Shown piece by piece: positions 17,536 to 47,568 of a stretch of 53,712 nucleotides of DNA. The DNA is from Actinomycetota bacterium (lineage in GTDB: Bacteria > Actinomycetota > CADDZG01 > WHSQ01): positions 1-53,712 of the forward strand of contig WHSQ01000014.1 in NCBI GenBank assembly GCA_009380005.1, written 5' to 3'. The notes beneath the pieces are model-generated. The model worked only from the letters and a program-made list of their open reading frames with translations. It ran no database searches and was not told the DNA's origin. A program made the position numbers and the translations under genes. Every line of letters starts with the position of its first letter. Positions within the stretch are counted from its first letter, which is position 1.

Positions 17536-19470
17536 TCAGGAGGGCCGGGGCGTGCTTGCCGTCGCCTCCTTCAGCTCTTGCCATGCCCGGCGGGCCTCTT
17601 CCACGGAGCCCTCGTCCTCGATCGTCGTGATGTCCCCCGGGTCCTTGTCCAGGATCACCGACCTCAGCACACGTCGCATGATCTTGCCGGAGCGGGTCTT
17701 CGGGAGCGTGTTTACGAAGTGAAGTTCGCCTATCACGGCAACCGCTCCGAGCTCATCGCGCACGGTCTCACGCAGTTCCCGCTCGAGGTCCGCCGAGGGC
17801 TCGCGGCCTTCCTTCAATACAACGAAGGCGGAGATGACCTCACCCCTGACCTCGTCGGGGCGGCCGGTGACGCCCGCTTCCGCCACCGCGGGATGCTTGA
17901 GGAAGGCGGTCTCCACCTCGATCGTTCCCATGCGATGCGCAGCTATCTTGATGACTTCGTCCGCTCGTCCCGCGAACCATACGTATCCGTCTTCGTCGAT
18001 ATGCGCCGAGTCTCCGGTGAAATAGACGCCGTTGATCCGTTCCCAGTAGTCGCGCCCGTAGCGCTCCGGCTCTCCCCATAGCGCCGGGGTAAGGCTTGGG
18101 AAGGGGCGGCGGATAACGAGCACACCTTTCTCGCCGGGCCCACATTCCCTTCCATCCGGCGTCATCACGGCGACGTCGATGCCGGGGAGCGGAAGCGTCG
18201 CGGAGCCGGGCTTAGTGGGAAGCATCGCTACCCCGTAGGGGTTCCCGATCGCAGGCCCACCGGTCTCGGTCTGCCACCAGTGGTCGATGACCGGGATCCT
18301 GTCGTCCAAGACCTGCTTCTGCAGCCACTCCCACGCAGGGGCGTTCAGCACCTCTCCCGCCGACATGATGCGTCGTAGCGAAGAGAGATCGAAGCCGCTC
18401 GCCGGCTTCTCCCCGTAGCGCATCAGAAGGCGGACCGCGGTCGGCGACGTGAAGATCCCGGTGACGCCGAACTCCTCGACGATGCTCCAGACGGCCTCCG
18501 GGCCCGGGTGATCGTAGGCCCCTTCGTATGCGATGGTCGTGCAGCCGAACAGCAACGGGGCGTAGACGATGTAGCTGTGTCCGACGACCCAACCGATGTC
18601 CGATGTAGACCACCACACGTCGGCCTCGTCCATCCCGAAGCACCATCTGCCCATGCTGTAGATGCCAACCTGGTACCCGCCGTGAGTGTGTACGGCAAGC
18701 TTCGGCTTCGCCGTAGTGCCCGAGGTGGCCAGGATGTAAGCGGGTTCGTTGGACTCCATGCGCTCGAAGGCTCCGCTCTCGCCGTCGGCCATGGAGAGGA
18801 ATTCGTTCCAGTAGAGGTCGCGGCCGGATTCCATGCTGGGTTCTTCGGCCGTCCGGCGTAGCACGACGACTCGCTCCACCGTTTCGCCCGCAGCCTTGAG
18901 AGCGGAGTCGACGATGTGCTTGAGGGCAACTTCCCCTCCCTTGCGGAAGGTGACGTCTGCCGTGAACACCAACCGGGAGCCACTGGCGGCGATACGGTCT
19001 CCAAGCGCCCCGGCACCGAACCCCGCGAACACAACGGAGTGGATCGCACCGATGCGCACGGCGGCCAGCATCAGCGTGATCGCCTCGGGACACGTCGGCA
19101 TGTATACGGTCAAGCGATCGCCCTTGCGGATCCCCATGCCGCGCAGGGCAGCCGCGGTGCGTTCAACCTCGTGGTGGAGCTGAGCATACGTAAACAACCG
19201 CCGCTCACCGCGCTCGTTCACGTATATCAACGCGGTATGTCCGGCCCGGCCCCGCGCAAGATGGTGGTCCAGGCAGCTATACGACAGGTTCGTCTCACCC
19301 CCGGTGAACCATTTGAACGTCGGGAAGTCATGTTCGAAGACGCGATCCCATGTGCGGAACCACGGTAAGTGCTGCGCGGCGCGGTCCCAAAACGTTTCTG
19401 TGTCGCGCTCGGCTTCCTGGCGTAGGTCACGAACCATCGGGTTTATCAGCTCCAGGGCAGTTTCCGTCAT
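17536..19470 (-). CDS. Acetyl-CoA-synthetase-type AMP-forming acyl-CoA ligase
   Basis: A 644-residue ANL ligase of the acetyl/propionyl-CoA synthetase group. Visible motifs are the P-loop (LATSGTTAKPKLAVHTHGG), WWQTETGG with the tryptophan that limits acyl chain length in Acs, and the C-terminal [11 protein letters not shown] with the catalytic, acetylatable lysine. The ATG at 19470 follows GAGGAG by nine bases and is preferred over a TTG nine bases upstream. It lies 79 nt downstream of a second, more canonical acs gene on the same strand. Divergence in the middle region (WWSTSDIGW in place of WWCAADIGW) suggests a different short-chain acid, but acetate is not excluded. Confidence 0.88.
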   Translation of the reverse strand: MTETALELINPMVRDLRQEAERDTETFWDRAAQHLPWFRTWDRVFEHDFPTFKWFTGGETNLSYSCLDHHLARGRAGHTALIYVNERGERRLFTYAQLHHEVERTAAALRGMGIRKGDRLTVYMPTCPEAITLMLAAVRIGAIHSVVFAGFGAGALGDRIAASGSRLVFTADVTFRKGGEVALKHIVDSALKAAGETVERVVVLRRTAEEPSMESGRDLYWNEFLSMADGESGAFERMESNEPAYILATSGTTAKPKLAVHTHGGYQVGIYSMGRWCFGMDEADVWWSTSDIGWVVGHSYIVYAPLLFGCTTIAYEGAYDHPGPEAVWSIVEEFGVTGIFTSPTAVRLLMRYGEKPASGFDLSSLRRIMSAGEVLNAPAWEWLQKQVLDDRIPVIDHWWQTETGGPAIGNPYGVAMLPTKPGSATLPLPGIDVAVMTPDGRECGPGEKGVLVIRRPFPSLTPALWGEPERYGRDYWERINGVYFTGDSAHIDEDGYVWFAGRADEVIKIAAHRMGTIEVETAFLKHPAVAEAGVTGRPDEVRGEVISAFVVLKEGREPSADLERELRETVRDELGAVAVIGELHFVNTLPKTRSGKIMRRVLRSVILDKDPGDITTIEDEGSVEEARRAWQELKEATASTPRPS

Positions 19471-19549
19471 CCCGACCAACTCCTCGACCGTTCAGCCTCG
19501 TGCAACCATCGGAAACGCCACCTCGAGCACCGCGCCCAGGTCGCCTGCG

Positions 19550-21526
19550 CTACTCCTCCTCGCCGGCCGCCTTCAGGGCATCCGATTTACCCCGTATCTC
19601 GTCCAGGATGGGCGCATTCAATAAGGTGGTGACGTCGCCCAGCTCGCGTCCCTCCGCGACGTCTCGCAAGAGCCGCCGCATTATCTTCCCCGAACGCGTT
19701 TTGGGAAGATCGTCTGTGAAGATGATGGCGTGCGGACGCGCTATCTTGCCGATCACCTCTGCAACGTGAGCGCGCAGCTCCTGCAGCAGGGTTTCGTCGC
19801 CCTCACGCCCCGCCTTGGGCGTCACGAAGGCGACGATCCTCTCCCCTTCTTTCGGATCCTGGCGGCCCACCACCGCCGACTCCGCGACCGCCTTGTGATC
19901 GACCAGAGCAGATTCCACCTCGTACGTCGAGATGCGATGGCCCGCGATGTTCATCACGTCATCCACCCGACCCAACAGCCAGAAGTCGCCGTCCTCATCG
20001 AGCTTGGCGCCGTCGCCGGGGAAGTACGTGTCTCGGCCGAATCGTGAGAAGTACGTGTCGAGATAACGCTGCTCGTCCCCCCAGATCGTGCGAAACATGG
20101 GAGGCGTCGGGCGCGTGAGCACGAGATAGCCGCCGCCGCCCTTGCCGACGGGCTTCCCCTTGTCGTCGACGACATCGGCGAAGACGCCGGGGAAGGGTTT
20201 CGTTGCCGACCCCGGCTTCAGCGTCGTGATGCCCGGCAAGGGGTTGATCATGATGGCTCCGGTCTCGGTCTGCCACCAAGTGTCCACCACCGGTGTCTTG
20301 CCTCCGCCGATGAACTCCTGATACCACACCCATGCCTCGGGATTGATCGGCTCCCCCACCGTGCCCAACAAGCGCAGGGAAGACAGATCGTGCTTAGCCG
20401 GATACTCGGTGCCCCACTTCATATGCGCCCGGATCGCGGTCGGAGCCGTGTACAGGATCGAAACGCCGTACTCCTCGACGATCGACCACCATCGGTCCTT
20501 ATCGGGCCAGTCCGGCGCGCCTTCGTAGAGGATCGAGGTACAACCGTTGGCGAGCGGACCGTAGACGATGTAGCTGTGGCCCGTGACCCAGCCGATGTCG
20601 GCGGCACACCAGTAGACGTCCCTATCCGGTTTGATGTCGAAGATGAGGCGGTGTGTCGACGACACGCCGGTCATGTAGCCGCCGGTGGTGTGGACGATGC
20701 CCTTGGGCTTGCCTGTGGTCCCCGACGTGTAGAGAAGGTAGAGGATGTCCTCCGAATCCATCGACTCCGCGTCGCGTTCCGGCGACGCATCGGCGATGAG
20801 ATCGTGATACCAGAGATCGCGACCCTCCTGCATCGAGACGTCTTCGCCGGTGCGCTTGACGACCACTACCCTTTCTATCGATGGGGACTCCGCTATCGCC
20901 TTATCGGAGTTCTGTTTGAGCGGCACGATGTCGCCCCGGCGGTAGCCGCCGTCGGCCGTGATGAGGACTTTGGCCCCCCCATCGTTCATCCGGTCGCGTA
21001 GAGAGTCCGCCGAGAATCCACCGAACACGACCGAATGAGGGGCCCCGATGCGAGCGCAAGCAAGCATCGCTACGGGAAGCTCGGGGATCATGGGCAGGTA
21101 GATCCCAACGCGATCGCCCCGGGCGACGCCAAGTTCAGTCAGCACGTTGGCCAGACGGCAGACATCTTCATACAGAGCCTTGTAGGTGATGGTCCTCTCC
21201 TCGCCGGGCTCGCCGATCCAGTGGTAGGCGACGCGGTCACCGGCCGACGCCAGATGGCGGTCCAGGCAGTTGTAAGAGGCGTTGAGCTTGCCTCCAACGA
21301 ACCACTTGTGGTGCGGGAACCCGCCCTCGAACACCGTGTCCCATTTGTGGAACCAGTCCAATTCCTCGGCCTGAGATGCCCACCAGGCATCGGGGTCCTG
21401 GTTGGCACGTTCGTAGATCGATGGATCCCCCGCGTTCGCCTGGCTCGCGAACGGACCCGGCGGTTCGAACGTGCGGCGTTCCTGCAGAAGGGCCTCTATC
21501 GTGTGCTCAACCTTCTCCTCGACCAC
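19550..21526 (-). CDS. acs: Acetyl-CoA synthetase
   Basis: A 658-residue canonical AMP-forming acetyl-CoA synthetase. It has the P-loop [17 protein letters not shown], the acetate-pocket segment [30 protein letters not shown] with the size-gating tryptophan, and [15 protein letters not shown] with the catalytic lysine that is a known acetylation site in this family. It makes acetyl-CoA from acetate, ATP and CoA. GTG at 21526 is preferred because a G-rich Shine-Dalgarno lies seven bases upstream; an extension to 21562 is possible. The gene is divergent from a DUF485/acetate symporter operon, so uptake and activation of acetate are adjacent. Confidence 0.93.
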
Positions 21527-36551: not shown

Positions 36552-37688
36552 TCAGCTCTCCGGGATCCGCAACAGAGCGCGCGCGATGATCTCACGCTGG
36601 ATCTCGGACGCGCCCTCGTAGATGCGAAGGGCTCGCACTTCACGATACAGCTGTTCCAGCAGGTGACCTCGCTCGAGCGCCCGCGCTCCGTGCACCTGGA
36701 TGGCGACGTCGATGACCGCTTGAGCAGTCTCCGTCGCGAAGAGCTTCGCCATCGCGGCCGACTCGCTCGAGGGCCGGATCCCCTTGTCGTAAGCCGTGGC
36801 TGCGGCGTGTACGAGCAAACGGGCCGCCTGCAGACGCGTCGCTGCATCGGCCAGCTGGTGAGAGATCCCCTGGAACTCCGATAGCCGCTTACCGAAGGCT
36901 TCGCGCGTCGTCACGTGCTGGACGGCGGCGTCAAGCGCCGCCTGCGCCATACCGACCGCGGCCGCGCCTACACTGGGCCGGAAGAGGTCGAGGGTATTCA
37001 TGGCGACGCGGAATCCGTCATCCACATCTCCCAGCACGTGGCTTGCGGGGACGCGCACACCGTCGAAATGCAGCTTGCCGATGGCGTGGTCCGAAAGCAA
37101 CGGGATCGCCTCACCCCCCAGCCCCTTCGCGGTGCCCTCGACCGCGAAAGCGGTGATGCCTCGAACGCCGGCCCCGGCCGTCGTGCGAGCGAAGACCGAA
37201 TACACGTCGGCTTCGGGGGCGTTGGAGATGTACGTCTTCTCGCCGGTGAGCACGAAAACGTCTCCCTCACGTTCGGCGGTTAGCGAGATCGCTCCCACGT
37301 CCGAACCGGCCCCCGGCTCCGTCAGGGCGAAGCCCGCCACGGCGTCGCCCCCGGCCACGCGCGGCACCCAGCGTGCGGCGACGCCGCGGGTGCCGGCGAC
37401 GAGGATGGGATGGGCCCCCAGGCCCTGGAGCGCAAACGCGGTCTCGGCGTGGGTGGAACGGCGCGCGAGCGCCTCGCGGGTGACGCACAGCTCGGTCGCC
37501 GGCACGTCGTCGTTCGCCAGGATGATCGACAGCAGCCCCTCCGCGCCCAGCGCAGAGACCAGTTCACGGTTGACCCGACCTGGAGGGCCAGATCTCGCGA
37601 TCCGGCCCAATACGTCGCGCGCCAATACGTCCACACGGTCGAGCAGCGCCCGGTGCTCGTCGGAGAGATGCGCGTGATGGTCGTTCAG
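36552..37688 (-). CDS. Acyl-CoA dehydrogenase
   Basis: 378 residues if started at CTG 37688, 360 if started at GTG 37634. The N-terminal extension (LSDEHRALLDRVDVLARD) matches the usual first helix of the family, so coding must begin upstream of the GTG. The only start-like codon is the CTG that overlaps the RidA stop (CTGA). Family motifs are GFALTEPGAGSDVGAI for FAD/substrate and the catalytic glutamate near residue 358 (IYEGASEIQ). It would oxidise an acyl-CoA with an electron-transfer flavoprotein. It is the last gene of the seven-gene anthraniloyl-CoA-type operon. Confidence 0.85.
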   Translation of the reverse strand: MNDHHAHLSDEHRALLDRVDVLARDVLGRIARSGPPGRVNRELVSALGAEGLLSIILANDDVPATELCVTREALARRSTHAETAFALQGLGAHPILVAGTRGVAARWVPRVAGGDAVAGFALTEPGAGSDVGAISLTAEREGDVFVLTGEKTYISNAPEADVYSVFARTTAGAGVRGITAFAVEGTAKGLGGEAIPLLSDHAIGKLHFDGVRVPASHVLGDVDDGFRVAMNTLDLFRPSVGAAAVGMAQAALDAAVQHVTTREAFGKRLSEFQGISHQLADAATRLQAARLLVHAAATAYDKGIRPSSESAAMAKLFATETAQAVIDVAIQVHGARALERGHLLEQLYREVRALRIYEGASEIQREIIARALLRIPES

Positions 37689-38089
37689 GGGATCACCGCC
37701 GTGCCGACGAGCTCGACCATCGCGGCCTCATCTATCAGCGAGGCGACACCGAGCAACGCCACGGCGGGATATCGCCGCCCGAAATGCTTCCGCCAGACCG
37801 GGGCAAGCTCGGTCAAGGAGTCACGGTATGCCGCCACGTCCGTGACGAAGACCAGTAGCGACACGATGTGGTCGGGCGCTCCGCCCGCGGCGCGCAGCGC
37901 CGTGACGACGTTCCCGGCGGCGACATCGAACTGCTCAACCATCGTGTCTCCTCGTATGGCGCCGTCTCGCCCCTGGGCGACCTGGCCGCCGAGGAATACG
38001 GTGCGACCCGCGCTCGCGACGACGGCATGGGAGAAGCCGATGGGATCCGCCAGTTCTCGAGAGACGACGATCTCGTGGGGCTCGCTCAT
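37685..38089 (-). CDS. RidA/YjgF-family protein with substituted active-site arginine
   Basis: 134 residues of the trimeric YjgF/RidA family, with the usual VFLGGQVAQGRDG and a C-terminal strand block. In canonical RidA, Arg105 (in VARLP) is essential for imine/enamine deaminase activity. Here the aligned residue is Ser (VASLI). The ATG overlaps the enoyl-CoA hydratase stop by 4 nt, and its own stop overlaps the CTG of the acyl-CoA dehydrogenase. Context suggests action on the amino-enone product of the monooxygenase/reductase, which is a vinylogous enamine. The missing arginine makes this uncertain. Confidence 0.84.
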   Translation of the reverse strand: MSEPHEIVVSRELADPIGFSHAVVASAGRTVFLGGQVAQGRDGAIRGDTMVEQFDVAAGNVVTALRAAGGAPDHIVSLLVFVTDVAAYRDSLTELAPVWRKHFGRRYPAVALLGVASLIDEAAMVELVGTAVIP

Positions 38090-38913
38090 CGCCCCGTCCA
38101 CTCCGGCTTCCGACCTTCGACCCAGGCCTTGTAGAACTCGCGGTGATCCACGCTCTTCATCAACAAGGCTTGGGATACGGCCTCGGCCTCGATCGCGCTC
38201 CCAAGATCCATGTCGAGCTCGCGCGTCAACAGCATCTTGGTGGTGGAGTGCGCGAGGGCAGGTCCCTCGGACAGCCTCCGCGCAAGGGCGCCGGCGGTCG
38301 AACCGAGGTCGGCATCGTCCACGACCTCCGTCGCGAGGCCGATGTGTAGGGCGCGGTCCGCATCGATCGTGTCGCCGAGGATGAGTAACTCCGTGGCGCG
38401 CCCCAACCCCACGAGGCGGGGAAGCAGGTAGGCCGCTCCCATGTCTCCCCCCGAGAGGCCGACCTTCGTGAAGAGGAACGCGAACGTCGCGGAGCGGGTC
38501 AGGATCCTGAAATCGGCTGCGAGCGCGATGACGGCGCCGGCCCCTGCGGCCACTCCATTGACGGCGGCGATCACAGGCAGAGGGCACTCCCGGAGCGAAC
38601 GGACGACGGCTCCCGTCATGCGCGTGAAGTCGAGCAGTTGGGACGTGTCCATCTCCTGGAGCGGGCCGATGATCTCGTCGACATCGCCGCCCGAACAGAA
38701 CCCGCTCCCTTCACCGGTCAGCAGGACGACCCGCACGTCGCCTCGGTGTGGAAGCTCTGCCAGTAGATCGCGCAGGTCGGCGTACACGTCGAACGTCAGG
38801 GCGTTGAGCCTCTCGGGCCGCGAGAACGTGATCGTAGCTACACCGTCATCGATCGCGAAGCCGAAATGCGGCCACTCCTCGGTGAATCCGGAAGACGCCC
38901 GGAACGGAGTCAC
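38086..38913 (-). CDS. Enoyl-CoA hydratase/isomerase family protein
   Basis: 275 residues of the crotonase fold. The oxyanion-hole segments are SGFCSGGDVDEI and NGVAAGAGAVIALAADFRI. An acidic residue in TKVGLSGGDMGAAYLLPRL takes the usual position of the second catalytic acid. It could hydrate a double bond in, or cleave the ring of, an alicyclic acyl-CoA. The GTG start overlaps the stop of the CoA ligase (GTGA). Its place in the operon next to RidA and acyl-CoA dehydrogenase genes suggests a beta-oxidation-like sequence. Confidence 0.88.
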   Translation of the reverse strand: MTPFRASSGFTEEWPHFGFAIDDGVATITFSRPERLNALTFDVYADLRDLLAELPHRGDVRVVLLTGEGSGFCSGGDVDEIIGPLQEMDTSQLLDFTRMTGAVVRSLRECPLPVIAAVNGVAAGAGAVIALAADFRILTRSATFAFLFTKVGLSGGDMGAAYLLPRLVGLGRATELLILGDTIDADRALHIGLATEVVDDADLGSTAGALARRLSEGPALAHSTTKMLLTRELDMDLGSAIEAEAVSQALLMKSVDHREFYKAWVEGRKPEWTGR

Positions 38914-40496
38914 CGAGGGATCTCGGTTCGCCCGGTCGGGCGGCGCAGGGCGGTTCGATCGATCTTGCCCGAGCCCGTCCTCGGTAGCTCCGCGACGAAC
39001 TCCACCTCGCGCGGGACCTTCTGCGGAGACAGGCGCTCCCTCGCGAACGCGATGACGTCCTCTGCCGCCAGCCCGGACCCTTCACTCCGAACGACGTACG
39101 CGCACGAACGGGTCAAACCTTCGTGATCGACTGCCACGACCGCACATTCGACCACGTCGGGATGCTGGGCGAGGCAGCTTTCGATCTCGGCGGGCGCCAC
39201 CCAGATGCCGCCCACCTTGAAAAGATCGTCCGCTCTTCCCCGGTAGTAGTAGAAACCATCGGGATCGCGCTCGAAGAGGTCGGCGCTCATCACCAGGTCT
39301 CCGGCGAAGGTACGCATCGAGGCGGCCCGATCGTTCCAATACATCAGGGCCGCGGTCGGACCCCGCACCCACAGACGTCCGACCTGACCATCCGGCACCG
39401 GATTCCCGGCATCGTCGACGATGGTCGCGTCGTATCCCGGCACCTCGGAGCCCAAGCTCCCCGGTCGACCCGCGCCCGGCCGATTCGAAATGTAGATGTG
39501 ATACGCCTCGGAGGAACCGATCCCGTCGACGACCTCGACGCCGAATGTTTCCACCCATCTGCGATGGAGGAGCTCGGGAAGGGCCTCGCCGGCCGACGTG
39601 CATAAGCGCAAACAACTTAGATCCTGCCGGTCCGCGTCCGGATGGTCCAGCATCGCCCGCATCATAGTCGGAACGTTCACGAGGATCGTGGGCCGGTAAC
39701 GGGCGATGAGCTCGAATACCCGCTCGGGCGTCGTTCGGTCGGGGAACACGATGCCTGCAGCTGCTACGCCGAATGGATAGAGCGCGGTCAGGTCGCGCGC
39801 ATATCCGAAGAAGAGCTTCGGCACGGGAAGAACGACGTCGTCGGACTGCAGTTCGAGGACACCGCGAGCGTATGCGTCGAAGCTGAGTAACGGCGTGTGC
39901 ATCGCATGCACGCACGCCTTGGGCCGCCCCGTGCTGCCGGTCGTGAACTTCCAGATGGCGATGTCGTCGCGATCCGTCGGTGCCGCGTCTAGAACCTCGG
40001 GAGCTTCCTTTACCAGCTCGTCGAAGGATGCCTCTCGCCCGCTCAGTTCCTCCGGACGTACGCCGACCACGAGCAGATGCCTCAGATAGCGACTACCCGA
40101 GGCCGCTTGCCGGACCTTGCCCAGCGTCACCTGGTCGACGACGACCACTTCCGCCCGGGTGTACTCGAGGTAGTACGCGTAATCCGAGGGTTGCAGATAG
40201 GTGTAGACCTCAGCGGTGACGCAGCCCACCTTCAGCACCGCGTACCACGTGGCCACGAACGCGACCGAATCGGATAATGCTAGTAGCACGCGGCTCTCCC
40301 GTCGCACGCCGAGACTCCGCAGCACGTTCCCGACGCGATCGGTCAGTTCCGCGAGCTGCGCGTACGTACATGGGCCTTCCGGTCCAATCAACGCCGTTCG
40401 ATCCCCGTGTCCCTCATCGACGTTGCGGTCGACGAAATACGCCGTCAGATTGAAGTCGCGGGGCACATCGTCGTGTCCGAGCACCTCTCTCCTCAA
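38910..40496 (-). CDS. Benzoate/2-aminobenzoate-type AMP-forming CoA ligase
   Basis: 528 residues of the benzoate-CoA ligase group. The P-loop is FTTGSTGRPKACVHAMHT, and the catalytic C-terminal lysine is in ELPRTGSGKIDRTALRR. SSEAYHIYISN and YWNDRAASMRTFAGDL are typical of aryl-CoA ligases. It should activate an aromatic acid with ATP and CoA; given kynureninase in the divergent operon, anthranilate is the likely substrate. The start is probably TTG at 40496 in a TTGA overlap with the creatininase-family stop. A GTG at 40484 with AGGAG just upstream is an alternative and shortens the protein by four residues. Confidence 0.88.
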   Translation of the reverse strand: MRREVLGHDDVPRDFNLTAYFVDRNVDEGHGDRTALIGPEGPCTYAQLAELTDRVGNVLRSLGVRRESRVLLALSDSVAFVATWYAVLKVGCVTAEVYTYLQPSDYAYYLEYTRAEVVVVDQVTLGKVRQAASGSRYLRHLLVVGVRPEELSGREASFDELVKEAPEVLDAAPTDRDDIAIWKFTTGSTGRPKACVHAMHTPLLSFDAYARGVLELQSDDVVLPVPKLFFGYARDLTALYPFGVAAAGIVFPDRTTPERVFELIARYRPTILVNVPTMMRAMLDHPDADRQDLSCLRLCTSAGEALPELLHRRWVETFGVEVVDGIGSSEAYHIYISNRPGAGRPGSLGSEVPGYDATIVDDAGNPVPDGQVGRLWVRGPTAALMYWNDRAASMRTFAGDLVMSADLFERDPDGFYYYRGRADDLFKVGGIWVAPAEIESCLAQHPDVVECAVVAVDHEGLTRSCAYVVRSEGSGLAAEDVIAFARERLSPQKVPREVEFVAELPRTGSGKIDRTALRRPTGRTEIPR

Positions 40497-41260
40497 TCGC
40501 GGGCCAGATCGCGTACGAGATCGACGAGCATCTGCGAGAGCGTAACGAACCTCTCGTGGCCCTCTTCGGGTGTCGCCTCAGAGGGGCTTCCGCAGTAGGC
40601 ATCGGCCATCCCCATCGCGAGGAAGTCGGTGCGTCCCTCAGCGATCGCTTCGGGCATGTTCACGTGCAACGGCGGCAGGCCGGCCATCTTTGCGGTATCG
40701 ATCAGTTCCGGCCGCTCGGCGAGCACCAGCGAGGTCTCGTAGCGACCCGCATGGCAAGAGCCGTCGCGGAACTCGTTCCCGAGTCGCTCGGCATTGGCTC
40801 GTCTGGTGAGGTCGAGGTAGGCCACCTTGGCCGACCCCCCGTTGTTCAGGCCCGCCACGGCTCGCCGTAGCGTCGCGACCTGTTCCGGCTCGAAGTGGTT
40901 GTTGACGATGACGATGCGCGGAAAACCCGCCTTCATCGCGGCACTGCACACGTCCACCACGAGCGCGCCGAGGGTCTCGTCACGGACGCCGATGGCTCCG
41001 GAGAAGGAGCTTGCGTAATCCGTGATCCCGTAGGAGATGGGAGGCAGTACCAGCGCACGAAGGTTCGGGTCTTGGGCGAGGGCACGGGCGGCACGTGCAC
41101 AGGTTCCCAGCGAGATGATCGAGTCGACGTCCAGGGGCGCGTGGGGGCCGTGCGGCTCGACGACTCCCACCGGAAGGAGCAGCACGACGACCTGGGGGCC
41201 GCCCTGAAGATCGCGGACCTCCGGCCAGCTCAGCTCGGCGAAATTGATCGAGGCCGTCAT
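40493..41260 (-). CDS. Creatininase-family amidohydrolase; candidate N-formylkynurenine formamidase
   Basis: 255 residues of the creatininase family. Metal-binding residues are at the expected spacing: Glu35, His37 and Asp46 (PVGVVEPHGPHAPLDVDS), His122 and Glu124 (NNHFEPE), plus His170 and Glu175 (CHAGRYETS). The family contains creatinine amidohydrolase and the archaeal deformylase ArfB, which removes a formyl group from a pyrimidine formamide. The pathway encoded here needs a formamidase between tryptophan dioxygenase and kynureninase and no cyclase-family KynB gene is present in the window. The ATG overlaps the stop of the preceding monooxygenase (ATGA). The formamidase role is inference; ring-opening of a later intermediate is an alternative. 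Confidence 0.82.
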   Translation of the reverse strand: MTASINFAELSWPEVRDLQGGPQVVVLLLPVGVVEPHGPHAPLDVDSIISLGTCARAARALAQDPNLRALVLPPISYGITDYASSFSGAIGVRDETLGALVVDVCSAAMKAGFPRIVIVNNHFEPEQVATLRRAVAGLNNGGSAKVAYLDLTRRANAERLGNEFRDGSCHAGRYETSLVLAERPELIDTAKMAGLPPLHVNMPEAIAEGRTDFLAMGMADAYCGSPSEATPEEGHERFVTLSQMLVDLVRDLARD

Positions 41261-43416
41261 CCCGCCCCCATCGGGCGCGCGGCCCGAGGCTCTTCCGCCA
41301 TCAACGAGTCGAGGTCCGACGCGATGACCTCGAGGAGGCACAGGTCGGCGCGACCGGAGCCCACGATCGTGTTCACCTCATCCGGCGTCGTGAGGTAGCC
41401 GCCGACCAGCGTCGGCACGCCGGTTTCGGCCCGGACGCGACCGGCAAGTGAGGTGAGGAATCCCCGCCGGTACTCCGGGCGTCCGCCGGCGATCGTCTGG
41501 CCCGCTGCGACGTGGATCATCCCGGCGCCCGACGCCGACATCCGTCGAGCGATGTCGATCGCCTCGTCCGGCGCCAGGCCCCCGTCCGCCCAGTCGGTCA
41601 CCGACATCTGCACGATAAGGACCCGGTCGCCCATCGCGGCGCTCACGGCCTCGAGCACAGACAAGGGGAAACGAAGCCGCGCCTCCAACGACCCGCCGTA
41701 CGCATCCGTCCGTCGGTTGGTGAGCGGCGACAGGAAACCCCCGATGAGATAGCCATGCGCGAAGTTCAGTTCCACCGCGTCGGCACCCATCGCCACGGCG
41801 CGGGCGGCTGCGGACGCGAAGTCCTCCCGTACTCTCGCCATGTCGTCTTCATCGATCGCTCGCGGCCGGACGCTCATCGGCGTATAGCGGATCGCCGACG
41901 CGGCCAGGATCGGCCATCCGCCGGCACGAAGAGGCAGGTCGACGCCACGCTCCCGAGGTTCGGTCGCAGCCCGCCGTCCCGCGTGTCCGAGCTGGATCGC
42001 GATCCGAGCGTCGTAACCATGTACGGCGTCGATCACAGAGACCCATCGGGTCAAGTCTGCGTCGTCGTTCAATACCGGGCAGTCGGGCGTCGTGCGCCCC
42101 TCCGGCGACACCGCGGTGAGATCCGTCAGTACGAGCCCCGCGCCGGAACGGGCCGCCTCGACGAGGGCGGATTCGTCCGAGCCCTCCCGCACGATGCGAT
42201 TCCCAAGGCCGAGCGATCCGAGCGTCAGGGGGACGAACATCGGAGGAGGAGCGAGGGATCCCGGCCGTAGCTCGCCCACGCCGGCGCGCTCCGAGAACCA
42301 CGCGTCGAGCACCCGGACGAACGGCGGATCGCGCAGCATGAGATTGGCGTGGCTGATCCGACCGCTGCGCGTCACCAGGTTGAAAGCGAACTGCAGAGGC
42401 GGCATGTGCGTCTGGCGCTCGACGCGTTCGAAGTACTCGGCGCTCTCCCGAGCCGCCTGCTGGAAACGCTCAACGACTGATTGACGCTCCAACTCGTAGT
42501 CGACGAGAGCGCGCTCGAGATCCTCGCGCCTGATGAAAGCGTTGGCGAGCGCGATGGAGTCCTCCATCGCGAGCTTCGTACCCGACCCGATCGAGAAGTG
42601 GGCGGTATGCGCGGCATCGCCGATGAGAACGACGTTGCCGTGATGCCAGCTCTCATTGTGCACCTCCAAGAAGTCCATCCAGATCGATCGGTTCGACATG
42701 AGCCGGTGACCTGCCAATTCCTTGCGGAATAGGTCCTGGCAGAAGGCCATACTCTCCGCCTCGTTCGTGCCGTCGAGACCCGCTCGGCGCCAGATGTGCT
42801 CCGGACACTCGACGATCCAGGTACTGGTCGCTTCGTCGAACGGATACGCGTGGACGTGGATCAGCCCGTGATCGGTGGGCTTGAAGACGAAGGTGAACGC
42901 ATCGAGGACCAGATCCGTGCCGAACCAGACGTACTTGCATCCGAGGGGAGCGATGGAGGTGCCGAACGCTCCCTCGTCCATCCGCCTGACGACGCTGTTG
43001 ACTCCATCCGCGCCGACGAGGAGATCGGTCTCGCCGGCCAGACGCCGCGGATCGTCTATCTCGGCGCCGAACCGAAGGTCCACATCCAGGTCCCGGCACC
43101 GGCGTTGGAGGATCGCCAGCAGCGACCGGCGGGAGATGGCCGAGAAAGCGTGTCCCCGGGAGCGCATCGTCCGGCCCCCATGGTGGATGTCGATCCGATC
43201 CCAGCGAGCGAACGTATCGGTGATGTCGATGTAGCTTCGGTGATCGGCCTCTTTGAGTGCACCGAGGGTCTCTTCCGAGAACACGACGCCCCATCCGAAG
43301 GTCGCGTCTGGGGGGTTGCGTTCGAGGATCGTGACGTCGTGCGACTGGTCGATCTTCTTCAGCAGGATCGCGAGGTAGAGCCCTGCCGGTCCGGCACCGA
43401 CGATCGTTACCTTCAT
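41257..43416 (-). CDS. Fused flavin monooxygenase/OYE-type reductase (anthraniloyl-CoA monooxygenase-like)
   Basis: 719 residues. The N-terminal half (about 1-370) is a class A FAD monooxygenase with the dinucleotide fold VGAGPAGLYLAIL (residues 6-18) and the GDAAHTAHFSIGSGTKLAMED motif. The C-terminal half (about 385-719) is an old-yellow-enzyme barrel with HGYLIGGFLSPLTNRRTDAYGG. This fusion is the architecture of 2-aminobenzoyl-CoA monooxygenase/reductase of Azoarcus evansii and of proteins annotated as bifunctional salicylyl-CoA 5-hydroxylase/oxidoreductase. It would hydroxylate and reduce anthraniloyl-CoA to 2-amino-5-oxocyclohexenecarbonyl-CoA. The start of the OYE domain is shorter than usual (NRIVREGSDESALVEAARSG). 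It overlaps both neighbours by 4 nt (ATGA). Confidence 0.88.
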   Translation of the reverse strand: MKVTIVGAGPAGLYLAILLKKIDQSHDVTILERNPPDATFGWGVVFSEETLGALKEADHRSYIDITDTFARWDRIDIHHGGRTMRSRGHAFSAISRRSLLAILQRRCRDLDVDLRFGAEIDDPRRLAGETDLLVGADGVNSVVRRMDEGAFGTSIAPLGCKYVWFGTDLVLDAFTFVFKPTDHGLIHVHAYPFDEATSTWIVECPEHIWRRAGLDGTNEAESMAFCQDLFRKELAGHRLMSNRSIWMDFLEVHNESWHHGNVVLIGDAAHTAHFSIGSGTKLAMEDSIALANAFIRREDLERALVDYELERQSVVERFQQAARESAEYFERVERQTHMPPLQFAFNLVTRSGRISHANLMLRDPPFVRVLDAWFSERAGVGELRPGSLAPPPMFVPLTLGSLGLGNRIVREGSDESALVEAARSGAGLVLTDLTAVSPEGRTTPDCPVLNDDADLTRWVSVIDAVHGYDARIAIQLGHAGRRAATEPRERGVDLPLRAGGWPILAASAIRYTPMSVRPRAIDEDDMARVREDFASAAARAVAMGADAVELNFAHGYLIGGFLSPLTNRRTDAYGGSLEARLRFPLSVLEAVSAAMGDRVLIVQMSVTDWADGGLAPDEAIDIARRMSASGAGMIHVAAGQTIAGGRPEYRRGFLTSLAGRVRAETGVPTLVGGYLTTPDEVNTIVGSGRADLCLLEVIASDLDSLMAEEPRAARPMGAG

Positions 43417-44243
43417 CGCCCGATGACCTCTGCGAGCCGGTCGAGCTGGTCGATATCCCGAACGGTCGGAAGCAGGATCAATTCGTCGCAGCCGGCTTCT
43501 TCGTATCCCCGCACGAAATCCTTGATCGCGCGTGGGCTCGTCAGGTTGCCGGCGACGATCTTCTCGGCGAACGGGCCGGTGAACGAATAGTAGTCGCGCA
43601 GGTACGCGTTACCGCGCTCAACCTCGCCCAGGGCGAAGTAACCCTGTCCCCACAAACGCGGTCGCCCCGGCCGGCCAAGATCGCTCCACGCCGCGAGGGC
43701 GCGAGCCACCGCGTTCTCGAAGGCCCGGGGTGGTCCTCCTCCGTGCGCGTAACCGTCGGCGTAACGCGCGGCTCGGGCGAACGCCGAACCGCTGGCCCCA
43801 CCGACCAGGAGCTCCAAGCCCGCGCGGGCGCTGAGACCCCGGTGGCCGTCGCCACCGTTTCGCAGATAGACCAGTTGTTCGGCCAGGCGGTCGCCCCGCC
43901 GGCGGGGATCTACCCCGGCGGCTTCGTAATCGTCGCGCCGGGCACCAACCGCCAGCCCGAGCGTCAGCCGGCCGCCCGATAGCGCGTCGACCGACATGGC
44001 TTGTTTGACCAGGACGCCGGTGCTCCGCAGAGGGCCGATCGCGATCATGGTCGCCACCCGGACTCGGTCGGTCACGGCCGCGGCGACCGCCAGCGCAATG
44101 AAGGGATCGATGCCTTCGTAGGCGAGCCGATCGAGGGCGACCACGCTGGAGAAGGGGCCAACCTCGGCTCGACGAGCCCATTCGGCTATCGCATCGCCGG
44201 GAGAATCCGGGATCGTGTTCGGGAGCCCGATTCCGACGTTCAT
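43413..44243 (-). CDS. LLM-class flavin-dependent oxidoreductase
   Basis: 276 residues of the bacterial luciferase-like monooxygenase family (MNVGIGLPNTIPDSPG at the start, then a VDALSGGRLTLGLAVG turn typical of F420/FMN members). ATG at 44243 follows AAGGTG by seven bases. It is the first gene of the minus-strand operon, overlaps the fused monooxygenase by 4 nt, and faces the tryptophan dioxygenase gene. Whether it uses F420 or FMN, and which step it serves, cannot be read from the sequence; a reduction or oxidation of a pathway intermediate is plausible. Confidence 0.85.
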   Translation of the reverse strand: MNVGIGLPNTIPDSPGDAIAEWARRAEVGPFSSVVALDRLAYEGIDPFIALAVAAAVTDRVRVATMIAIGPLRSTGVLVKQAMSVDALSGGRLTLGLAVGARRDDYEAAGVDPRRRGDRLAEQLVYLRNGGDGHRGLSARAGLELLVGGASGSAFARAARYADGYAHGGGPPRAFENAVARALAAWSDLGRPGRPRLWGQGYFALGEVERGNAYLRDYYSFTGPFAEKIVAGNLTSPRAIKDFVRGYEEAGCDELILLPTVRDIDQLDRLAEVIGR

Positions 44244-44310
44244 GACCAGACACCTTACGCTTGCGGACGCTGCCGACTCTCGTTACGGAGCACCGGGATC
44301 GGGGACGAAG
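44244..44310. promoter_or_regulatory. Divergent promoter region of the tryptophan catabolic cluster
   Basis: If kynA starts at the ATG at 44311, 67 nt remain for both divergent promoters. If it started at the ATG at 44242, the two start codons would overlap within one CATG and no promoter space would exist. No convincing operator palindrome was seen, and no regulator gene is encoded in the cluster. Confidence 0.45.
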
Positions 44311-45102
44311 ATGGACGATCACAGAGCGGCTCTCACGTACACGTCCTACCTCGCGCTGGACGAGCTACTCGCGGCGCAACGGCCTCGCTCCGACGAGCAC
44401 GACGAGATGCTCTTCATCATCATCCACCAGGTCTACGAGCTGTGGTTCAAGCAGATGGCGCACGAACTCGTGTTCCTTCAGGGGCGACTGCATGACGGCG
44501 ACACGGCGCATGCCCTGGCGACGATCCGCCGGGTGCTGACGATCCTCAAGACGGTCGTCGCGCAGATCGACGTACTCGAGACCATGACCCCGCGGCAGTT
44601 CCTCTCCTTCCGAAGCCGGCTCGAGGCGGCCAGCGGCTTCCAGTCCGCTCAGTTCCGAGAGCTCGAAATGCTCCTCGGAAGCCGAAACCGTGGAGTTCTG
44701 GGGCACCACCCACCCGACAGCCCGGCCCGCGCAAGGATCGCGGAAGCGATGGAACGGCCCACGCTGTTCGACTCGTTGCTGCGATACCTGGCGACGCAGG
44801 GCTACGACCTGCCGAAGGAGGCGCTCGAGCGCGACCTGACCGCGGCGTGGGAAGCATCCGAGGATGTCCAGCGCGTCTTGCTCCAGGTGTATCGCGACGA
44901 CGGGGAACAGGCACAGGTGTGCGAGCGCTTCGTCGATCTGGACGAAGGGTTCCAGGAATGGCGTTATCGCCACGTGAAGATGATCGAGCGAACGATCGGC
45001 GATAAAAGGGGAACCGGTGGTTCGTCGGGGGCCGAGTATCTCCGTAAGACCTTGTTCAAGCCCGCCTTTCCCGACCTGTGGGCGATCCGCGAGCGGTTGT
45101 GA
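44311..45102 (+). CDS. kynA: Tryptophan 2,3-dioxygenase
   Basis: A 263-residue heme dioxygenase that converts L-tryptophan to N-formylkynurenine. Diagnostic segments are LTYTSYLALDELL, DEMLFIIIHQVYELWFK (active-site His near residue 39), FRSRLEAASGFQSAQFRELE, and EWRYRHVKMIERTIGDKRGT with the heme ligand and GTGGSSG loop. ATG at 44311 is preferred because a GGGGA lies five bases upstream and the alternative ATG at 44242 has no ribosome binding site and would overlap the opposing start codon. The stop overlaps the kynU start (GTGA). Confidence 0.93.
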   Translation: MDDHRAALTYTSYLALDELLAAQRPRSDEHDEMLFIIIHQVYELWFKQMAHELVFLQGRLHDGDTAHALATIRRVLTILKTVVAQIDVLETMTPRQFLSFRSRLEAASGFQSAQFRELEMLLGSRNRGVLGHHPPDSPARARIAEAMERPTLFDSLLRYLATQGYDLPKEALERDLTAAWEASEDVQRVLLQVYRDDGEQAQVCERFVDLDEGFQEWRYRHVKMIERTIGDKRGTGGSSGAEYLRKTLFKPAFPDLWAIRERL

Positions 45103-46265
45103 ACCCGCTCGCCCGCCACTACACGCGCTTCCGCGTGAGCGAACGACTCCTGCTGACGGGCCACTCCCACCAGGCGTGGCCCGACGTGGCCTTCGACGGT
45201 CACATCGAAGCCTTCGAGGACGCGGCCCTTCACGTCGATACCAAATGGGAACGAGCCTTCGACAAGGCCGAGCACGTACATGATGGGTTCCGCGCCCTGT
45301 TGGGCGAGCCGTCCGCGGAGATCGCTCTGGGGACGAACACGCACGAGTTGGTGGTCAGGTTCCTGTCCGCGCTCGAGCTCGGCACCCAATCGCGGCTGAT
45401 CACCACGGACGGGGAGTTCCATACCCTGCGGCGGCAGATGGCCCGTCTGCGCGATGCGGGCCTGGATGTCGTGGTGGTGGCGGCCCGCCCGGTCGGAACG
45501 CTCGCGGACAGGCTGGCGGATGCCCTCGACGACTCCACCGCGGCCGTGCTCGTTTCCGCCGTGTTGTTCGAGGACGCGCGCATCGTCCCGCATCTGGATC
45601 GGCTCGCCATCGCCTGCAGGGAGCGCCACTGTGAGCTCTTGGTTGACGCGTACCACGCGCTCGGGGTGATCCCCTTCCGGCCGGAGGAGAAGGGCCTGAA
45701 CTCAGCCTGGATCGTCGGCGGCGGTTACAAGTACCTGCAGCTGGGAGAGGGCAACTGCTTCTTGAGGATCCCGGCCCACGCCTACGAAGCGCGGCCGATC
45801 GTGACGGGCTGGTTCGCTGAGTTCGGGGATCTGACCAGCGCTCCGGGCGATCGCGTCGAGTACGGACGGGGGGCAGCGGCCTTCGGTGGCTCGACCTACG
45901 ATCCGACGAGCCACTACAGAGCTGCCCGCGTCTTCCAGTTCTTCGAGCATCAGGGGCTCACACCCGAACGTCTGCGCGAGTCCTATCTCCATCAGCTGGA
46001 CGTTCTGGCGAGCGGCTTCGACGCGCTCGACCTTCCCGAGGAGCGAGTTACCCGCGACCGAGAGACGCCGCTGGAAAGCCTCGGCGGCTTCCTCGCTCTC
46101 CGGTCCCCGCGCGCGGGAGAGCTGCAGGCAACCCTCGCGGAACGAGGCGTCCTTACGGACAGCCGCGGCGACTTCTTGCGGTTCGGTCCTGCCCCCTACC
46201 TCGACGATTCCCAGCTCGCCCGAGCGATCGGCATCCTGGGCGATGCTGTGCGGGCATCGCTCTAG
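45099..46265 (+). CDS. kynU: Kynureninase
   Basis: A 388-residue fold-type I PLP enzyme of the class V/kynureninase group. The PLP lysine is Lys211 (GGGYKYLQLGEGN) and the ring-binding aspartate is Asp183 (LVDAYHALGV). It also has TNTHELVVRFLSAL in the N-terminal half. It cleaves kynurenine to anthranilate and alanine. GTG at 45099 overlaps the kynA stop, so the two are translationally coupled. Together with the divergent CoA-ligase operon this gives a route from tryptophan to anthraniloyl-CoA. A general class V aminotransferase or desulfurase is the alternative; context favours kynureninase. Confidence 0.88.
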   Translation: MNPLARHYTRFRVSERLLLTGHSHQAWPDVAFDGHIEAFEDAALHVDTKWERAFDKAEHVHDGFRALLGEPSAEIALGTNTHELVVRFLSALELGTQSRLITTDGEFHTLRRQMARLRDAGLDVVVVAARPVGTLADRLADALDDSTAAVLVSAVLFEDARIVPHLDRLAIACRERHCELLVDAYHALGVIPFRPEEKGLNSAWIVGGGYKYLQLGEGNCFLRIPAHAYEARPIVTGWFAEFGDLTSAPGDRVEYGRGAAAFGGSTYDPTSHYRAARVFQFFEHQGLTPERLRESYLHQLDVLASGFDALDLPEERVTRDRETPLESLGGFLALRSPRAGELQATLAERGVLTDSRGDFLRFGPAPYLDDSQLARAIGILGDAVRASL

Positions 46266-46330: not shown

Positions 46331-47224
46331 TCACGGCGCGCGGTGCCGCGCTACCGCAGTTCGAACTTCTGGAGCGACCTCCTCAGCGAAACGTCGGAGC
46401 TGCCCGGTCGGCTCTCCCGCCGGCCAGAAGATGAATGCGTCCATCCCGAACTCGACGACCAGACGCGTGAGCTGGTCGGCCCAGTGCGAGACGGGTCCCT
46501 CCAGGAAACCCCTGCGATCACCGTCGGTGATCGTCCCCGAGACATTGTAGATGCGGCGAACATCGCTCGGTTTGCGCCCCGCGTTCTGCGCGGCTTCATC
46601 GATGCGGTCGTGCATCTCCGGGAGTCTCTCGGGAGGCGCCCAGGGGGAGGATGGCACCCATCCGTCGGCGAGCCGCCCCACGAGCGCCAGCATGCGTGGA
46701 CCGCCGGCGCCGACCCAGATGCCGATGTCGTGGGCCGGGACCGGCCCGGAGTGGATGCCCCTGAGATGGTAATGACTGCCCTCGAAGCGCAGGTTCCTCT
46801 CGCCGCTCCAGAGAAGGCGGATCACCTCGATCGCCTCGGCCACCGACTCGACGGCCTCCGACCGGCGTCTCCGGGAACCTCCCATGGCCTCGATCGCATC
46901 CCAGAAGCCCCCGGCCCCGAGACCGAGCTCGAACCGCCCGCCGCTCATCCTGTCGATCGACGCGGCCGCCTTCGCGATGATCGATGGATGACGGAGCGGA
47001 AGGTTCGCCACGTCGGGGAAGAACCGCACGCGGCCGGTACGCGCCACGAGGTCGCCGATGAGCGAGAAGGTATCGAGGAACCGACGCTGGTAGGGATGAT
47101 CCTGGATGCCGATGAGCTCCAAGCCGGTCTCATCCGCGATCCGAGCCTGTTGGACCAGCGTCGGATAGTCAACCGCGTTCGGTACGGGGAAATATCCGAA
47201 CTCGACGTCCCGCCGGTAGTCCAT
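46331..47224 (-). CDS. LLM-class flavin-dependent oxidoreductase
   Basis: 297 residues of the luciferase-like monooxygenase superfamily, different from the one at 43413. It has VQQARIADETGLELIGIQDHPYQ near the N terminus, SIDRMSGGRFELGLGAGG, and IGIWVGAGGPRMLALVGRLADGW, typical of F420-dependent members. The ATG at 47224 shares one base with the stop of the upstream DUF5519 gene (TGATG), so the two are coupled. It is convergent with kynU. The substrate is unknown; a role in the tryptophan cluster is not indicated. Confidence 0.86.
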   Translation of the reverse strand: MDYRRDVEFGYFPVPNAVDYPTLVQQARIADETGLELIGIQDHPYQRRFLDTFSLIGDLVARTGRVRFFPDVANLPLRHPSIIAKAAASIDRMSGGRFELGLGAGGFWDAIEAMGGSRRRRSEAVESVAEAIEVIRLLWSGERNLRFEGSHYHLRGIHSGPVPAHDIGIWVGAGGPRMLALVGRLADGWVPSSPWAPPERLPEMHDRIDEAAQNAGRKPSDVRRIYNVSGTITDGDRRGFLEGPVSHWADQLTRLVVEFGMDAFIFWPAGEPTGQLRRFAEEVAPEVRTAVARHRAP

Positions 47225-47568
47225 CAAGTGGGTTCTTTCGGCACCCCGTCACGAGCGGTGATGCGCTCGTAGTTCAGGCGCATCATCTCGATCACGTCGC
47301 GGATGTCTGCGTCGTGCTCGATCCGTCGCGCGGCGAAGCCGGGCTTGCCCGGAAACACCGGATGATCGACGACTCGCCCCTCGGCTCTCAAACTCAGGCC
47401 CAGCTTCTTGGGGAAAGAGAAGTGTGCGGCGGAGTCACCGTGCAGATGACCGAGCTCCCGACCACCTACCCTGAAGCCGAACTCTCCCCGGGGCCCTGGG
47501 CCCGCCTCCACTCCGGGCCACGACCCGACTTCCTCGGTGATCTGCCGGCTCGCCGTCGACTGTGACAT
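47224..47568 (-). CDS. DUF5519 (luciferase-family) protein
   Basis: 114 residues. The segment GEFGFRVGGRELGHLHGDSAAHFSFP followed by ...GRVVDHPVFPGKPGFAARRI is characteristic of the small DUF5519 family, sometimes named luciferase family protein. It carries several conserved histidines. ATG at 47568 follows GAGGAGG by about six bases. It is translationally coupled to the LLM oxidoreductase gene. No activity is known; an accessory or ligand-binding role for the oxidoreductase is inference. Confidence 0.78.
   Translation of the reverse strand: MSQSTASRQITEEVGSWPGVEAGPGPRGEFGFRVGGRELGHLHGDSAAHFSFPKKLGLSLRAEGRVVDHPVFPGKPGFAARRIEHDADIRDVIEMMRLNYERITARDGVPKEPT

Follow-up and report, generated by a model that had tools for sequence, protein, structure and literature searches.

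The 53,712-nucleotide stretch analysed here (the window; contig C55 of a draft Actinomycetota genome of 3.8 Mb in 639 contigs) carries at positions 36552-46265 a gene cluster that appears to degrade tryptophan through coenzyme A (CoA) thioesters. All of the genes named in a preliminary description of this DNA are present, arranged in two divergent operons. Two entries of that inventory had to be corrected, as the kynureninase gene kynU belongs to a divergent clade and the fused flavoprotein ACMR has a reductase half of the old yellow enzyme (OYE) type without the motifs for flavin mononucleotide (FMN). The minus-strand operon reads, 5' to 3', LLM1-ACMR-CREA-LIG-ECH-RidA-ACAD; its first six genes, LLM1 to RidA, are linked by successive 4-bp overlaps, and RidA and ACAD are spaced by 50 bp. 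The plus-strand operon consists of kynA and kynU, which also overlap by 4 bp. The family of every gene is backed by Pfam and NCBIfam, kynU being the weakest case. The genes are as follows.

43413-44243, minus strand: LLM1, an oxidoreductase of the luciferase-like (LLM) type, proposed to act as the reductase partner of ACMR (PF00296)
41257-43416, minus strand: ACMR, a flavin adenine dinucleotide (FAD) monooxygenase fused to an OYE-type barrel without FMN motifs (PF01494 and PF00724 in one open reading frame)
40493-41260, minus strand: CREA, a creatininase-family amidohydrolase, proposed N-formylkynurenine formamidase (PF02633, 169 bits vs a cut-off of 31.3)
38910-40496, minus strand: LIG, an aryl-CoA ligase, proposed anthranilate-CoA ligase (TIGR02262, 478 bits vs a cut-off of 375)
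38086-38913, minus strand: ECH, enoyl-CoA hydratase/isomerase family, lower pathway (NF006107, 399 bits, above the cut-off)
37685-38089, minus strand: RidA-like protein, proposed to hydrolyse an enamine or imine on a CoA thioester (PF01042)
36552-37634, minus strand: ACAD, an acyl-CoA dehydrogenase, lower pathway (PF00441/PF02770)
44311 (likeliest start)-45102, plus strand: kynA, tryptophan 2,3-dioxygenase (PF03301, 211 bits vs a cut-off of 34.9)
45099-46265, plus strand: kynU, divergent kynureninase (family profile, Foldseek, adjacency to kynA)

Union of kynurenine genes with the anthraniloyl-CoA route

KynA matches the solved bacterial tryptophan 2,3-dioxygenase 2nox over its whole length (E 7e-60) and stays under the TIGR03036 equivalog cut-off (295.6 vs 390.7 bits). 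KynU is under the Pfam KYNU_C cut-off as well (25.1 vs 27 bits). A profile of its close relatives finds the solved kynureninase 1qz9 first (E 3e-17), with the next pyridoxal 5'-phosphate (PLP) enzyme (2.8e-6) trailing by eleven orders of magnitude, and 97.9% is reached when hhalign compares the profile with that of annotated kynureninases from Proteobacteria. Additionally, 1qz9 is the top Foldseek match of the structure model (predicted local distance difference test, pLDDT, 77), with other class V PLP enzymes scoring close, and kynU directly follows kynA in nearly all kynU loci. Owing to this agreement of family profile, Foldseek and adjacency to kynA, kynU is predicted to encode a kynureninase of a divergent clade.

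The preliminary description held that the kynurenine route is joined here to the anthraniloyl-CoA route, and the adjoining genes bear this out, as does the same union in other phyla. Contigs with ACMR were recovered by an alignment query, a single-sequence query having given none. Among 396 genomes of the phylum, ACMR occurs in 49 and kynU of the window's type in 11; seven of the ten other genomes with such a kynU also possess ACMR, and in several Actinomycetota among them the kynA-kynU pair lies inside the ACMR cluster. Furthermore, kynA-kynU stands beside ACMR in Gemmatimonadota (L128, L135, L138, L181), Alphaproteobacteria (L149, L158, L174, L178, L199, L200 and L124, the last being Sagittula) and Betaproteobacteria (L156, L180, L186). 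Conservation of the cluster with kynA/kynU in relatives, by which the preliminary description itself proposed to be judged, is thus found in Actinophytocola, other Actinomycetota, Gemmatimonadota and Proteobacteria. The linkage probably arose more than once, since the alpha- and betaproteobacterial kynureninases of ACMR clusters belong to the other, canonical clade. In the 396-genome survey no kynU of the window's type was found in the window's own family, and the nearest relatives of the window ACMR are those of Actinophytocola (57-60% identity); for these reasons the cluster was probably acquired laterally, as far as sequence comparison can tell. In Actinophytocola oryzae and an Actinophytocola metagenome-assembled genome, kynU-kynA is divergent from LLM1-ACMR-CREA-LIG-SDR-ECH-RidA-ACAD, where SDR denotes a short-chain dehydrogenase/reductase.

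Two side observations concern these loci. In several loci the surroundings of kynU/ACMR include a tryptophan synthase beta gene of the TrpB2 type (L126:17621-18979, L045:4988-6130, L087:7029-8396, L092:282-1643 and L119:19449-20127; association in the ACMR set, Fisher p 0.07); its product might salvage indole into tryptophan for the ACMR route. In the Gemmatimonadota locus L181:8847-12448 there are tandem overlapping ACMR reading frames of 451 and 749 aa, which represent a duplication or an assembly error.

The formamidase step and CREA

Between the actions of KynA and KynU, N-formylkynurenine must lose its formyl group. The preliminary description overlooked the gap at this step, which gives CREA a likely role. 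Neither KynB nor an alpha/beta-hydrolase formamidase is present among the genes of 36552-46265, and a search of the host genome found no canonical KynB above the cut-off. The best scorer with the KynB profile (34 vs 223 bits) is a PF04199 cyclase on contig C66 (L094:8802-9575), whose neighbours are an aldehyde dehydrogenase, an amidohydrolase and an FAD monooxygenase. This operon looks unrelated, and its neighbourhood is possibly a further aromatic catabolic cluster of the host.

Other kynA-kynU-ACMR clusters carry various hydrolases. In Betaproteobacteria, KynB lies directly beside kynU, that of L180 exceeding the curated cut-off (287 vs 223 bits). Alphaproteobacteria and several Actinomycetota have an alpha/beta-hydrolase, which in Actinomycetota carries the HGGxW motif that we take to be a mark of animal-type kynurenine formamidase. 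This hydrolase was found in nine of the ten kynU genomes other than the host and was not found in the host genome. The alphaproteobacterial hydrolase matches the actinobacterial one weakly and is hormone-sensitive-lipase-like according to NCBIfam, so its assignment as formamidase is less sure. CREA is carried by the clusters of the window, Actinophytocola and Gemmatimonadota. Altogether, 17 of the 21 loci with kynA and kynU contain one hydrolase class only (KynB in 3, alpha/beta-hydrolase in 8, CREA in 6), and none contains two; the remaining four have none of the three, and three of these four lie on short contigs. CREA accompanies kynA and kynU in six of its seven loci (Fisher p 6e-5, uncorrected for kinship).

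Gemmatimonadota hold the nearest relatives seen outside Actinophytocola, with identities of 35-41% for CREA, 56-60% for KynA and 54-60% for KynU. As CREA accompanies kynA-kynU there together with an ACMR of the other type, sequence comparison indicates that the three proteins travel together across ACMR backgrounds and that CREA tracks kynA-kynU, not the ACMR type. Its metal-ligand residues E35, H37, D46 and H122 are invariant in seven relatives, and it fails the equivalog cut-offs of creatininase (TIGR04448, 80 vs 235 bits) and MftE (TIGR03964, 95 vs 172 bits). A precedent is BrbF, which had been annotated as creatininase and is a proven formamidase of riboflavin biosynthesis (PMC9478397). 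BrbF and the archaeal formamide hydrolase ArfB resemble CREA in the formyl removal proposed for it and, for BrbF, in the creatininase annotation; they differ in their substrate, a pyrimidine nucleotide. KynB, of family PF04199, catalyses the very reaction proposed for CREA but is non-homologous.

Given the lack of KynB and alpha/beta-hydrolase, the mutual exclusion, the co-occurrence with kynA-kynU and the BrbF precedent, CREA is probably the otherwise missing N-formylkynurenine formamidase, judging from sequence and gene context. It is rather unlikely that CREA instead acts in the lower pathway, for instance on a ring-opened or cyclic amide, and that deformylation falls to the contig C66 protein or an unspecific amidase. 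That alternative would suit the place of CREA between ACMR and LIG, outside the kynA-kynU operon, the existence of a PF04199 protein in the genome, the locus L133, where CREA occurs without kynA/kynU on an 8-kb contig, and the Sagittula cluster, which has none of the three hydrolase types nearby. However, only one of 108 ACMR clusters without kynA-kynU contains CREA, which argues that the lower pathway does not need it; moreover, the contig C66 protein is far under the KynB cut-off in an unrelated-looking operon, and the three hydrolases exclude one another among the kynA+kynU loci. A search at E 1e-40 in the 396 genomes had found CREA in its own genome only and suggested a stray gene, a view reversed by the wider ACMR scan. 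A plasmid search yielded no CREA. No relevant report of a creatininase acting as kynurenine formamidase was found in the literature searched, outside which most subscription journals lie.

The reductase half of ACMR and its neighbour LLM1

The preliminary description likened the fusion simply to the Azoarcus evansii enzyme, a comparison that does not extend to its reductase half. The window ACMR and that of Actinophytocola score 828 and 766 bits, under the NF006101 cut-off of 1078, whereas scores of 1134 and 1368 bits are reached in Gemmatimonadota and Betaproteobacteria. According to the ACMR alignment, the OYE half of the window protein has lost the FMN loop (SPMxxY region), after which a 13-residue gap follows; the first of two substrate-binding His residues is replaced by Asn and the FMN Arg by Gln, and the terminal GRP/ARP phosphate motif is gone. 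The roles of individual residues are assumed here from general knowledge of the OYE family. The barrel motif remnants QLGHAGR and AHGYL are still recognisable.

This degeneration coincides with the presence of LLM1, a link that the preliminary description had missed. When four FMN features were scored in 123 ACMR proteins, both the FMN loop and the phosphate motif were lost in all 26 encoded next to an LLM1 gene and in one of the 97 others; the remaining 96 keep all four features, and the exception, L046, starts at a contig edge on the side expected for LLM1. The LLM gene of L139 was dropped as a candidate, as its product is only 28% identical and it lies on the opposite strand. LLM1-type ACMR proteins are shorter (median 718 vs 763). 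Additionally, mean identity in the LLM1 group is 0.47 for the OYE half vs 0.55 for the monooxygenase half, compared with 0.62 vs 0.55 in the rest. In every LLM1 locus this gene is the immediate upstream or downstream neighbour of ACMR and shares its strand, and the other LLM1 proteins are 52-66% identical to that of the window, haloarchaeal ones included. The type is spread over Actinomycetota, Chloroflexota (L127, L140) and haloarchaea (L119, L120), and no report of it was found in the literature searched.

Probably the OYE half can no longer hold FMN and is kept as a scaffold. Because the loss of FMN motifs matches the adjacency of LLM1, LLM1 has probably taken over the reduction formerly done by this half. 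It is improbable that the fusion still works as in Azoarcus evansii, with a reducing OYE half and with LLM1 serving a later reduction or an accessory oxidation. Structure prediction retains the barrel fold (pLDDT 88.8; template modelling score of 0.83 to OYE 8pun, the alignment given to the predictor also holding intact OYE rows), and the surviving motif parts would agree with such activity. Nevertheless, the alteration or deletion of the FMN loop and the loss of the phosphate motif are uniform among LLM1-type proteins, and in all ACMR of the other type it is the OYE half that shows the higher conservation. A quick tree had suggested two independent origins of the LLM1/OYE-loss type, which are not claimed here, as the approximately unbiased (AU) test allows one.

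For the takeover by LLM1, use of coenzyme F420 is plausible. LLM1 is under the cut-off of the F420 family TIGR03619 (112.6 vs 166.9 bits), its nearest families are F420-type LLM proteins, and among solved structures a putative F420-dependent enzyme comes closest. In the host genome CofD was found above its cut-off (291 bits); CofH was found neither there nor in two further genomes with LLM1 (G278, G385). The view that the missing CofH refuted F420 dependence was withdrawn once CofD had been found. In Natronosalvus, cofH and a gene for an NADPH-dependent F420 reductase occur together with the cluster. The window has a second LLM oxidoreductase gene, LLM2 (46331-47227), which does not recur with the cluster elsewhere; in the minus-strand segment 46331-47568, the LLM oxidoreductase gene overlaps by 4 bp that of a small PF17648 'luciferase domain' protein.

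Ligase and lower pathway

The best solved relatives of LIG are the benzoate-CoA ligase 2v7b and the anthranilate-CoA ligase 4wv3, which score similarly, 2v7b being slightly nearer; LIG is proposed to be an anthranilate-CoA ligase. It is highly improbable that another aromatic acid, salicylate or benzoate, is the substrate of the aryl-CoA part and that kynA-kynU is its neighbour by chance: the NCBI family name (salicylyl-CoA 5-hydroxylase/oxidoreductase) and the slight nearness of LIG to benzoate-CoA ligase favour this, but four bacterial groups have kynA-kynU next to ACMR, with differing gene orders and kynureninase clades, the clusters conserve a RidA-type gene, as an amino-substituted ring would lead one to expect, and Arthrobacter ligases of such clusters were shown to be anthranilate-CoA ligases (PMC3534580).

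ECH is conserved beside ACMR, and the best NCBIfam relative of ACAD is cyclohexane-1-carbonyl-CoA dehydrogenase, below the cut-off. The RidA-like protein is under the TIGR00004 cut-off (37.7 vs 106 bits) and has Val at the position of the canonical RidA Arg, which is non-Arg in the cluster relatives too; as an observation of its own, the cluster RidA-like proteins read P-A-M/V/I in place of the canonical P-A-R from haloarchaea to Burkholderia. Since the canonical Arg binds a carboxylate, its loss would fit a CoA-thioester substrate. In anthranilate-grown Arthrobacter, liquid chromatography-mass spectrometry (LC-MS) detected a CoA ester whose formula is that of cyclohexanedione-carboxyl-CoA (PMC3534580), which fits removal of the amino group prior to ring opening. 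Most clusters of relatives carry an SDR as well.

In agreement with the preliminary description, which named the usual dioxygenation of anthranilate as absent, a search of the host genome found no anthranilate dioxygenase above the cut-off. A search of the same genome for 3-hydroxyanthranilate dioxygenase, in which the controls were silent too, is not evidence of absence. In ACMR neighbourhoods of the window's family and others (L034-L042, L046, L050), the benzoate-type ligase gene is replaced by a phenylacetate-CoA-ligase-like one, and the cluster additionally includes genes for a hotdog thioesterase and a glutaryl-CoA-dehydrogenase-like protein (ACAD2). In L048, L056, L060, L064, L066 and L070, a PF04199 cyclase and a thiamine pyrophosphate (TPP) enzyme gene occur together beside ACMR; these could encode an isatin hydrolase and an isatinate decarboxylase, another upper module feeding anthranilate in. 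Farther away in the window, two adjoining acetyl-CoA-synthetase-like genes at 17536-21526 on the minus strand are followed by a plus-strand sodium:solute symporter gene.

Proposed route and its relation to known systems

The cluster fairly likely encodes a complete upper and middle pathway of aerobic tryptophan catabolism via CoA thioesters. KynA would convert tryptophan to N-formylkynurenine, from which CREA, as a metal-dependent enzyme, would remove the formyl group, and KynU would then release anthranilate and alanine. LIG would activate anthranilate to anthraniloyl-CoA, the FAD half of ACMR would hydroxylate the ring and LLM1, in place of the OYE half, would carry out the dearomatising reduction. 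Nitrogen removal, ring opening and oxidation of the product may be performed by RidA, ECH and ACAD. Taken jointly, a third, creatininase-family class of kynurenine formamidase and a two-protein anthraniloyl-CoA monooxygenase in Actinomycetota, Chloroflexota and haloarchaea, composed of a cofactor-less OYE pseudoenzyme and a separate, possibly F420-dependent LLM reductase, can be put forward only tentatively. Besides the contig C66 protein, which could be the formamidase, and locus L133, several findings weigh against the scheme: the mixed signs of F420 in the host genome, the lack in the window of the SDR and PaaX genes that its closest relatives possess, and the possibility of a single ancestral LLM1/OYE-loss event, one clade not being rejected by the AU test (p 0.61) and independent pairs being too few for a test of the link. 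With one origin not rejected, one or two events followed by long retention may account for the perfect match.

The Azoarcus route and its first two enzymes are established, and the chemistry has been reviewed (PMC4539516). It shares the ligase, the fused monooxygenase/OYE protein and beta-oxidation-type enzymes with the window, which differs in the loss of FMN motifs, the coupled LLM oxidoreductase and the added kynA, kynU and creatininase-family genes. The Azoarcus cluster presumably contains a RidA-type gene too. Enzymes of the Azoarcus type (NF006101) are defined by the conversion of 2-aminobenzoyl-CoA to 2-amino-5-oxocyclohex-1-ene-1-carbonyl-CoA. The anthraniloyl-CoA route is also used by indole degraders (PMC6221969) and quinaldine degraders (PMC3534580). 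In Arthrobacter sp. Rue61a, the latter source describes an anthranilate-CoA route sharing the ligase and monooxygenase/reductase genes, with CoA esters determined by LC-MS; it receives its input from quinaldine and anthranilate instead of a kyn operon, and the excerpt gives no CREA or LLM1. Sagittula stellata E-37 (plasmid NZ_CP155731), Thalassospira, Roseivivax and Mitsuaria share kynA-kynU, ACMR, SDR, ECH, ACAD, ligase and RidA; they have an intact OYE half and no LLM1, and KynB or an alpha/beta-hydrolase replaces CREA (none near in Sagittula). Actinophytocola oryzae DSM 45499 (NZ_SOCP01000031) shares the genes and order of the window, including CREA, LLM1 and the degenerate OYE half, and additionally has the SDR and a PaaX-type regulator absent from the window.

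Novelty of the joining of the two routes is not supported, since a paper of 2022 names tryptophan degradation via anthraniloyl-CoA monooxygenase/reductase among the pathways that its automated annotator omits because too little is known about them (PMC9007349). The route itself is known, and CREA as formamidase and the LLM1 type go beyond what the literature searched reports. A few purified proteins would suffice for testing both claims, and the named strain Actinophytocola oryzae DSM 45499 bears the same cluster. Tryptophan degradation via anthraniloyl-CoA is widespread, yet poorly described. If the present interpretation is true, it would provide a candidate formamidase gene where KynB is missing and a clean case, in bacteria and archaea, of a catalytic domain that has lost its cofactor site within a fusion and whose activity is provided by an adjacent gene.

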